From: Candidatus Rifleibacterium amylolyticum
Lineage (GTDB): Bacteria > Muiribacteriota > Ozemobacteria > Ozemobacterales > Ozemobacteraceae
NCBI GenBank assembly: GCA_009917695.1
Contig: JAACJG010000015.1
Location: forward strand, 1 to 64,000
Length of the DNA stretch: 64,000 nt
Direction: 5' to 3'
Positions within the stretch are counted from its first letter, which is position 1; each line of letters starts with the position of its first letter. The position numbers were made by a program, and so were the translations under genes. Of this stretch, positions 4,518-43,048 are shown piece by piece. Under the pieces are notes generated by a model, which was not told the DNA's origin, made no database searches, and worked only from the letters and a program-made list of their open reading frames with translations.

Positions 4518-5476
4518 CTCCTGGTGAGAGAATTCTCTTCGCTACTTTTATCTTTTGTTTTCTCTCTGCGCTTCCTACGTCGCCAGCTGCCTTCATTCGC
4601 CGTATCCATTATTGTATCGCCGTACAGAACCAGAACCTTGCAACCGGGGTTGATGCGGTCTCTGGCGGCATTTATTTTTTCGCGTAATTCATCAAGATTA
4701 TATCGCAACGAAGTGTGAAAAAGGAGCAAGGTCTCGACCCGAGCCATTTTCGCGCTTTCAAGCACCTCATCCAGGAATGAATGCTGCTGAAAATTACGCT
4801 CATCATCATCGCTGCTCAAGTAAGTACATTCATGGCACAGGAAAAGGCTTTCGCTGACCAGAGACGGCTCAATTGGTCTGGAATCGCCGCCATAAGAAAA
4901 AATTATTTTTTCAAACTCTGTGGCAATTTCATCTTTTCCTTTTGTCCAGACGATCTGGTTAAGGTCTCGCTGAGAAAAACCTTCATATTCAGCTTTCAGC
5001 CGCCTGCGTTTTTCGATGATGTTGTATCCAAGGCTCAGCTGACGTTGGGAGTGCTCGGTGCGAAAAGTCCTGATAAATACTTTACTGCGCTGATCTTCGA
5101 GCATTATTTCTTCATCGGCGTCCACGGGAATCCACTCGAGGTCAAACGAGAGAGCCTTCTGGGTTCTTGCCAGATAGTCCATGATGAATTCGATCAACTT
5201 GTTGTTTTTTGGAATGTATATCTTGAGAGAGGCTGTTTGATCGCCGGCTCCAAGGTTTCTGATGTTCAACAGGTTTACCAGGCCGGCAATATGGTCGGCA
5301 TGACCGTGTGAAAGAAAGATTCTGCGAATTCCAAATACCCGGTTGCAAAGGCTGGTAGCGACACCCTCGCCCGCATCAAAAAGGATGTTGAAGCGACGAT
5401 GATACAGCCAGGTTGAAAAAAGAGCTCTTGAGAACCCGCAAAGTTGATCTTGAAGTGGGAATTGTGGGGTTGTCAT
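4514..5476 (-). CDS. rnz: Ribonuclease Z-like metallo-beta-lactamase-fold nuclease
   Basis: A 320-aa protein with the metallo-beta-lactamase motif SHGHADH (residues 56-62), FDAGEG upstream, and the RNase Z signatures GGDSRP, HECTY and a C-terminal LLFHTSLRY, which supply the remaining zinc ligands. RNase Z cleaves the 3' trailer of tRNA precursors. The usual THLHGDH is HGHADH here and the exosite region is not obvious, so a related nuclease is possible. The C-terminus is strongly basic (RRRKRR). The longest frame starts 17 codons earlier, but GGAAGGA 6 bp before the ATG at 5476 decides the start. It overlaps the NtrC-type regulator by 4 bp. Confidence 0.85.
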   Translation of the reverse strand: MTTPQFPLQDQLCGFSRALFSTWLYHRRFNILFDAGEGVATSLCNRVFGIRRIFLSHGHADHIAGLVNLLNIRNLGAGDQTASLKIYIPKNNKLIEFIMDYLARTQKALSFDLEWIPVDADEEIMLEDQRSKVFIRTFRTEHSQRQLSLGYNIIEKRRRLKAEYEGFSQRDLNQIVWTKGKDEIATEFEKIIFSYGGDSRPIEPSLVSESLFLCHECTYLSSDDDERNFQQHSFLDEVLESAKMARVETLLLFHTSLRYNLDELREKINAARDRINPGCKVLVLYGDTIMDTANEGSWRRRKRREKTKDKSSEENSLTRS

Positions 5477-41561: not shown

Positions 41562-42107
41562 TCAAGGCATATATTTAAGCTCAAGTCTGGTGCCTGAAAT
41601 GTTGGTTTCAAAATTAGACAGATCGGCGCCATTTAGAAACAAGTCCAGAAAAAAGGCGCGGGCTTCGGGCTCTATTGTCTGATACGGAGGACGCGGCTCT
41701 ATCGCAATACCGCCGACCAATCTTTCACGGTCAAAATAGATTGTTACAATATAGGCTGATATAACGAGGCGACTGTATTTGCCAAATGCATAAGAATAGT
41801 TCTTAGCTCCATTTGCGCGCAGCATGTCTTCCACTCTGGATACCGGCATGCCAAAAGCACCGATTTCCTTACCAGCTGGTGGAGCTTTCATATGGTTGTC
41901 CATCATGGGGTCGTAAAGCGAAGTTGTTGTCGTAGCTGTCGATCTGTTTTCCGGCGGTGCTGTTGCTGGACTGGATGCAACCGGCACCGGAGTAGTTGTT
42001 TTTGGCGAACCCGCAGGTTTCGAGAAAAAATTCGGCATCTGCGCCAGAAGCTTTCCATGCAGCAAAATCAGCAGTATGGCAAAGAGTATTCTTTTTAATT
42101 TGTTCAT
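41562..42107 (-). CDS. Exported protein of unknown function
   Basis: A 181-aa protein with a signal peptide (residues 5-22, cleavage near LLAQ) followed by a Thr/Ser/Pro-rich linker (about 28-65) and a compact C-terminal domain of about 100 residues (EIGAFGMPVSRVEDMLRANGAKNYSYAFGKYSRLVISAYIVTIYFD). That domain alternates helix and strand and somewhat recalls SmpA/BamE-like folds, but no family was recognised. It is convergent with the PlsY-like gene (12 bp between stops) and diverges from the RseC-like gene. Confidence 0.65.
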   Translation of the reverse strand: MNKLKRILFAILLILLHGKLLAQMPNFFSKPAGSPKTTTPVPVASSPATAPPENRSTATTTTSLYDPMMDNHMKAPPAGKEIGAFGMPVSRVEDMLRANGAKNYSYAFGKYSRLVISAYIVTIYFDRERLVGGIAIEPRPPYQTIEPEARAFFLDLFLNGADLSNFETNISGTRLELKYMP

Positions 42108-42644: not shown

Positions 42645-42675
42645 AAAAAAAATCCCCGGTTCAAAAAGCCGGGGA
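42645..42675 (-). terminator. Minus-strand intrinsic terminator without a coding gene
   Basis: TCCCCGG/CCGGGGA stem with a 9-nt loop, followed on the minus strand by eight T residues. The plus strand has no T-run after the stem, so it cannot serve the RseC-like gene. The only upstream minus-strand transcription signal is the sigma-54 element at 42955-42971. Confidence 0.8.
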
Positions 42676-42945
42676 CAAAGTGAGAGGATCTTTTGAGAGG
42701 ATTGTTGAGTCATCGTCGGATGACAAAATTATAAAAAGCTTTCCGGGTCATGCTATGGCTATTCATTGGCTGTGGTGTTGAGTGATTTGGGTCTGGTATT
42801 GTGATTGTGTGATGATAAGAAGTTGAGTGTGCTGTATCTTAAGAGAGTGACCATCTTGTTTCCATGGAGTGAGTGTGCGATCACAAAGTATGAATATACT
42901 TTAAACGACCCGGAAAACGCTTTTTCATTTTTCAAAGAACTACAT
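42645..42945 (-). ncRNA. Predicted sigma-54-dependent structured non-coding RNA
   Basis: About 300 nt between the predicted sigma-54 start (near 42945) and the intrinsic terminator (42645-42675). A closing stem pairs 42734-42749 (AAAAGCTTTCCGGGTC on plus) with 42907-42924: 6 plus 10 base pairs with a 2-nt bulge, enclosing about 157 nt. Inside lie a hairpin AAAGTAT/ATACTTT (42885-42902) and, in the RNA sense, an A/C/T-rich, G-poor stretch in which CACTCAAC occurs twice and CACTCACTCC once, possible single-stranded pairing regions. A hairpin GTCATC/GATGAC (42709-42724) follows the closing stem. The 5' end carries GTTCTTTGAAAAATG, resembling a boxA site. No ORF with a start downstream of the predicted transcription start is convincing; the best is 31 codons from 42854. 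Not matched by eye to 6S, tmRNA, RNase P or SRP RNA. Confidence 0.55.
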
Positions 42946-42954
42946 AAATAATAG

Positions 42955-42971
42955 AGCAAGTTCCGTGCCAA
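42955..42971 (-). promoter_or_regulatory. Sigma-54 (-24/-12) promoter element
   Basis: The minus strand reads TTGGCACGGAACTTGCT, a perfect match to TGGCACG-N4-TTGCW with invariant GG and GC at correct spacing. It is intergenic and points towards the structured element and terminator at 42645. An NtrC-type activator is encoded at 2997-4517. Confidence 0.7.
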
Positions 42972-43029
42972 CTTTTAAAATCGGTTTTTAGCCATTTTCA
43001 AGGGTTTAAGTAGTTAAAAATTTACACAA

Positions 43030-43048
43030 GTGCGTTTTTTTCACGCAC
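43030..43048. promoter_or_regulatory. Candidate enhancer dyad upstream of the sigma-54 element
   Basis: GTGCG-N9-CGCAC, centred about 95 bp upstream of the predicted sigma-54 start, within the usual range for NtrC-class upstream activator sites. Its spacer is T-rich, so it could instead form a hairpin. Confidence 0.35.

Follow-up and report, generated by a model that had tools for sequence, protein, structure and literature searches.

Does the minus strand between a radical SAM gene and an RseC-like gene of Candidatus Rifleibacterium amylolyticum encode a sigma-54-driven structured non-coding RNA, as had been predicted from the letters of this locus alone, and if so, what might such an RNA do? 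The window considered here is the whole stretch of DNA that was analysed, 64,000 nucleotides of contig JAACJG010000015.1, and at its edge a minus-strand 16S rRNA gene is cut short, its 5' part occupying positions 1-73. The original prediction is supported by comparative evidence: judged by sequence, the locus is one member of a family of small-RNA genes in Ozemobacteraceae (Riflebacteria) that has not been described before. A literature search found no paper joining "Riflebacteria" with "small RNA".

Anatomy of the locus

The features that the following sections refer to are listed in the direction of the predicted transcript.

43030-43048, minus strand: upstream palindromic site GTGCGTGAAAAAAACGCAC, likely an enhancer-binding-protein site; the same motif occurs in relatives
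42955-42970, minus strand: sigma-54 -24/-12 element TGGCACGGAACTTGCT; the window's only perfect match, with a perfect element in 25/28 copies
42645-42945, minus strand: predicted transcript of ~300 nt; sigma-54 spacing puts the start at ~42944 and the T run marks the end; full-length homologues in G002 and G005
42932-42941, minus strand: conserved 5'-end motif AGUUCUUUGA, recurring at the 5' ends of copies; can pair with the inter-seed linker
42907-42925, minus strand: closing stem, 5' arm; from the fold and compensatory changes
42750-42906, minus strand: variable CA/CU-rich, G-poor loop domain; length and sequence poorly conserved among copies
42733-42749, minus strand: closing stem, 3' arm; from the fold and compensatory changes
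42709-42724, minus strand: short hairpin GUCAUC-CGAC-GAUGAC, retained by most class A copies
42681-42702, minus strand: twin seed AUCCUCUCAAAAGAUCCUCUCA, near-invariant across an alignment of 29 copies from hosts and phages and predicted to be mostly unpaired
42645-42675, minus strand: intrinsic terminator UCCCCGG-loop-CCGGGGA-U8, from sequence; stem and T run in all aligned copies

The claim of a perfect sigma-54 element was borne out: TGGCACG-N4-TTGCT at 42970-42955 is the sole zero-mismatch match in the window, and the accompanying estimate that such an element would arise there about 0.1 times by chance is correct. With up to two mismatches allowed, 16 sigma-54-type matches are found against 12.6 expected, so that only the perfect match can be given weight. 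The start predicted near 42945 agrees with the sigma-54 spacing, and the anticipated eight T residues, at 42652-42645, follow a G+C-rich stem. The RNA is as poor in G as had been proposed (14%), and its closing stem, which consists of AAAAAGC/GCUUUUU plus UUUCCGGGUC/GACCCGGAAA and has the expected 2-nt bulge, located in the 5' arm, appears in the MFE fold, the z-score of which (-2.2) is modest taken alone. Two features had escaped the original prediction: the twin ATCCTCTCA at 42702-42681, which is the most conserved, and the upstream site at 43048-43030, after which a second, degraded half site reaches 43013 to give a double site at 43013-43044. By itself, a single sequence with a sigma-54 element, a fold and a U8 terminator is no more than suggestive; the comparative evidence, namely sigma-54 elements in the copies and covariation in the stem, is decisive for the observation. 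Beside the Rnf/RseC cluster there also lies, in nine of the loci compared, a gene for a 181-aa protein without a Pfam match (41562-42107 of the window, minus strand).

Distribution, promoter elements and covariation of the family

Searching relatives with a 336-nt query recovered full-length homologues in two members of the genus and the 3' part across most of the family. An exact scan for two TCCTCTCA motifs 2-6 nt apart, applied to 24 family genomes and to 16 genomes from the phylum's other families, returned 28 copies in 20 of the 24 Ozemobacteraceae genomes and no copy in the other 16; three of the four family genomes in which the scan found nothing are 67-82% complete, and the fourth (G010) is 94% complete. 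Seven family genomes, including the window's own (two copies), G002 and G005, carry the gene two or three times over, with one core common to the copies. Across ~85,000 GTDB species genomes, 23 stretches contain the 21-mer TCCTCTCAAAAGATCCTCTCA, 22 of which were attributed to family-genome contigs or to the same records (some in MAGs labelled otherwise), the exception being a 3.6-kb contig (L024) of a MAG labelled Pseudomonadota. A covariance-model search, proposed at the outset as a check, was carried out with a model of the 3' module; twin-seed copies are recovered at E values of 2e-12 or lower and stand apart from the background, and weaker relatives appear in genus g11 (E values of 6e-7 to 3e-3). 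Two of these relatives were examined over their whole length; each combines a sigma-54 element with a closing stem of similar kind, one seed only, and a terminator. The window RNA has no Rfam match at the gathering score, and only weak, terminator-driven matches up to E = 10.

Class A copies lie at a syntenic locus between a B12-binding radical SAM gene and the RseC-Rnf cluster, and class B occupies a second syntenic locus with the same plan and a different sequence. Near-identical class A genes form a tandem pair, 791 bp apart, in G005 (contig C39; L004:714-1836), and G009 and G016 have two copies within one locus as well. In G006, a seed and terminator that lack a sigma-54 element sit right behind an ndk gene (L145:7985-8064, or G006:C55:72972-73064); the linker of this seed is one base shorter, and from its sequence the copy looks like a version derived from a 3' UTR.

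Perfect matches to TGGC[AG][CT]-N5-TTGC lie about 105-390 nt upstream of the seed core in 25 of the 28 copies, whereas none was found when these regions were read on the reverse strand as a control (0/28); the three copies without an element are those of G022, G011 and G006:C55. The palindromic site GTGNNAAAANNNCAC (at most one mismatch) lies upstream of the element in 21 of the 25 sigma-54 copies, against 0.42 expected in shuffles, and is often present twice with 17-bp spacing. A proposed link to nitrogen limitation and NtrC found no support, the common upstream site being GTGNNAAAANNNCAC, which we take to be unlike an NtrC site. A ZraR-type site, considered as a model for GTGNNAAAANNNCAC, was set aside when a search of papers gave no confirmation. 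Scanning the 24 genomes for the double site with up to three mismatches gave matches with zero or one mismatch solely at the contigs and positions of sRNA loci (that of G014 is ~570 bp from its sRNA copy, on the opposite strand). Since the double site is nearly confined to sRNA genes, these RNAs may be the main route by which one regulator acts, and from the distribution of sites a single activator probably controls, through such double sites, few genes beyond these. RpoN is encoded by 19 of the 24 family genomes, the window's own included. A PAS-domain sigma-54 activator gene (L132:12394-13905, G000:C9) was noted 4.4 kb from a class B copy. Activator genes of a similar cluster lie at a comparable distance from the class B copies of G002 and G005, and an activator of this PAS type could regulate the sRNA genes, the association being one within the genus only; no GTGNNAAAANNNCAC-type site was found in the promoter region of the activator gene itself.

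Both conservation and covariation in relatives, by which the prediction was to be judged, were found. The class A closing stem has changes on both sides of a pair (e.g., C-G to G-C, G-C to A-U, and U-A to C-G), and some of the non-pairs are register shifts in divergent copies, which form stems of their own. In the class B closing stem, four pairs show two-sided substitutions, all of which keep the pairing intact; here GUCGCG/CGCGAC replaces the short hairpin of class A. The sequence of the terminator stem also changes between aligned copies, the stem and T run being always there. Pairing of AGUUCUUUGA with the inter-seed linker appears in the class B consensus but does not vary there, and so no more than suggests a lock.

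The twin seed and its phage versions

The most conserved part of the RNA is the 22-nt twin seed AUCCUCUCAAAAGAUCCUCUCA adjoining the terminator, which stays nearly invariant in host and phage copies while the terminator stems and all upstream sequence diverge. Both seeds are predicted to be largely unpaired (0.76 and 0.83, versus 0.51 for the remaining RNA), and AUCCUCUCAAAAGAUCCUCUCA is complementary to GAGAGGA-type ribosome-binding sites, its complement UGAGAGGAU resembling such a site. Of the exposed pairing sites originally proposed, a conserved one does exist, the twin AUCCUCUCA by the terminator, whereas the CACTCAAC repeats sit in the variable loop, where CA/CU-rich stretches recur. The window's genome encodes two Hfq paralogues and the RNA has a U8 tail, the two sequence traits looked for in an Hfq-dependent sRNA, and the RNAs are probably Hfq-assisted.

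From this arrangement we infer, as the probable explanation, a family of sigma-54-dependent trans-acting sRNAs, the twin seeds of which would block, with Hfq, mRNAs that have GAGAGGA-type ribosome-binding sites. A dedicated enhancer-binding protein on GTGNNAAAANNNCAC sites would activate sigma-54 RNA polymerase, and the transcript would run from about 42944 to 42645, where the U8 terminator would end it. With the variable domain enclosed by the closing stem, both the terminator tail and the twin AUCCUCUCA seed would stay accessible; the seeds, with Hfq, would then pair to the mRNAs and block translation, and two seeds together with several gene copies would provide a higher dose or avidity. 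A little-studied lineage, known here from metagenome-assembled genomes alone, would thereby gain a regulatory RNA circuit, the parts of which (activator site, sigma-54 promoter, seed and terminator) are readable from sequence.

The Qrr sRNAs of Vibrio, which are sigma-54-dependent and use Hfq, are a parallel in another phylum. Several sibling genes, the NtrC-type activator LuxO, and a 32-nt conserved pairing core are described for them (PMC4211561). The Ozemobacteraceae sRNAs also have several sibling genes per genome with a common conserved core, an element per gene (25/28) and a shared activator site (21/25), but they differ from Qrr in the core itself, the long closing-stem architecture, the upstream site, and the existence of minimal phage-borne forms; the Qrr family of Rfam gave no match at the gathering score or among matches up to E = 10. 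By analogy, they most likely work in the manner of Qrr, with NtrC-type activation of several genes that share a conserved core, yet are unrelated to it.

Seven contigs carry the seed and terminator alone, six of them with recognised phage genes, and these versions single out the seed as the functional core. The exact 21-mer is found on four IMG/VR contigs (L045-L048), the seed modules of L078 and L079 have a shortened linker, and L024 resembles the phage versions and, as judged by eye, has sequence upstream of the seed in common with L048. Neighbouring genes encode terminase subunits (L048, L079), a portal and a major head protein (L046), an integrase and a CI-like repressor (L045), a tail-completion protein (L047), and an endolysin (L078). 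No sigma-54 element was found in the 520 nt upstream of the seed in L024 and L045-L048. There are instead -35/-10 pairs in L046 (TTGACA-17-TATCTT), L048 (TTGATA-17-TATACT), and L047 (TTGACG-18-CATAAT) and an extended -10 in L024 and L079; the L045 promoter is weaker, and L078 has no clear one. These sigma-70-type elements end 5-6 nt ahead of AUCC, so the seed should form the 5' end of a phage RNA of 52-59 nt. Two genomes of the phylum, one of them from Ozemobacteraceae (50% identity), contain relatives of the L048 large terminase, and none were found in 17 genomes outside the phylum, a distribution that fits phages of this phylum, short of proof. Cultured phages and plasmids gave chance-level matches only, and the viral matches L077 and L152-L160, in which the motif lies inside other repeats or is not followed by a terminator, were treated as chance. 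L047 (IMGVR_UViG_3300036987_000401) also has, at 4827-4897 on the minus strand, a type II hammerhead ribozyme that scores 48.5 bits against a cut-off of 37.

It is tentatively proposed that Ozemobacteraceae phages carry the host seed in the same sense, on an RNA of ~55 nt behind a sigma-70-type promoter, and might in this way turn a conditional response on unconditionally in infection or lysogeny. AgvB of EHEC is a phage-encoded anti-sRNA acting in the host sRNA network (PMC4104026), and the phage RNAs described here would plug into such a network too; unlike AgvB, which mimics an mRNA target and blocks a host sRNA, they bear the host sRNA's own seed. This opens the question of what a phage gains from carrying just the seed of a host sRNA.

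Targets and competing explanations

CrcZ, CrcY, and CrcX of Pseudomonas are RpoN-dependent ncRNAs activated by an NtrC-family regulator (PMC8657755), and sigma-54 control, a G-poor loop with CA/CU-rich stretches, a short repeated motif, and two Hfq paralogues could all be read as signs of a similar RNA here, in which unpaired CA/CU-rich stretches sequester Hfq or another RNA-binding protein and the twin motif is a protein site. We regard this as unlikely: strict conservation is confined to the 22 nt by the terminator, an antisense-like twin seed rather than CA-rich stretches, while the CA-rich domain varies and is much reduced or absent in the short copies and phage versions. The reading is weakened because its CA-rich part is the dispensable part, and CrcZ is absent from the Rfam matches both at the gathering score and up to E = 10.

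The CCUC-containing seeds might instead mimic the anti-Shine-Dalgarno sequence of 16S rRNA and interfere with a large number of mRNAs together, a general brake on translation that phages would turn on the host. Short terminator RNAs with a CUCCUC motif (RF02278, the Betaproteobacteria toxic small RNA) are toxic in E. coli (PMC4603805), and the likeness extends to a short RNA with a repeated CUCCUC-like motif directly before the terminator, closest in the compact phage forms. The match to RF02278 over the seed and terminator is weak, however (18.7 bits, far under the 50-bit cut-off), no hairpin surrounds the motif here, and a sigma-54 promoter precedes the host copies, which also include a large 5' domain. 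Such a brake seems improbable, its case weakened because the conserved letters (22 nt, including exact AUCCUCUCA) exceed what anti-Shine-Dalgarno mimicry needs; the chromosomal copies, moreover, are permanent, ancient, and placed behind an activator-controlled promoter.

For the preferred reading, pairing with mRNAs, searches of several kinds gave no conserved target. Occurrences of GAGAGGAT before ATG in the window's genome and the genus are at start sites that are not orthologous, and few matches to the longer complement GTGAGAGGAT precede an ATG in the family genomes, with no orthologous ribosome-binding site among them. The sole recurring candidate, an ankyrin-type protein (L091/L169/L194), was rejected because its site lies within an open frame that extends upstream. 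Five of the twelve listed family matches of GTGAGAGGAT before ATG, two of them overlapping, are in G010, which has no copy of the sRNA; the numbers are too small to claim that sRNA-bearing genomes avoid GTGAGAGGAT. The targets could be subject to rapid turnover, or could pair at another site or through a shorter match; the RNA could also act by something other than antisense pairing. The empty mRNA search, the short repeated motifs typical of decoys, and the precedent of phage RNAs acting on host sRNAs (AgvB, PMC4104026) would suit a twin motif that is the binding site of another sRNA or mRNA, which the RNA sequesters. When the family genomes were searched for the twin seed's long complement, however, just the copies themselves and one site with three mismatches came up, so that any decoy partner would pair over a shorter stretch, and we consider such a decoy very improbable. 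That the RNA serves a neighbouring gene as a leader or attenuator, or encodes a small peptide, is barely credible, since the 15-codon frame MKKRFPGRLKYIHTL of the window copy, nearly identical in both G005 copies, is shifted in the G002 copy and missing from others, the terminator faces the convergent RseC gene with the next same-strand gene ~540 bp further, and the gene occurs as tandem copies in G005, G009, and G016.
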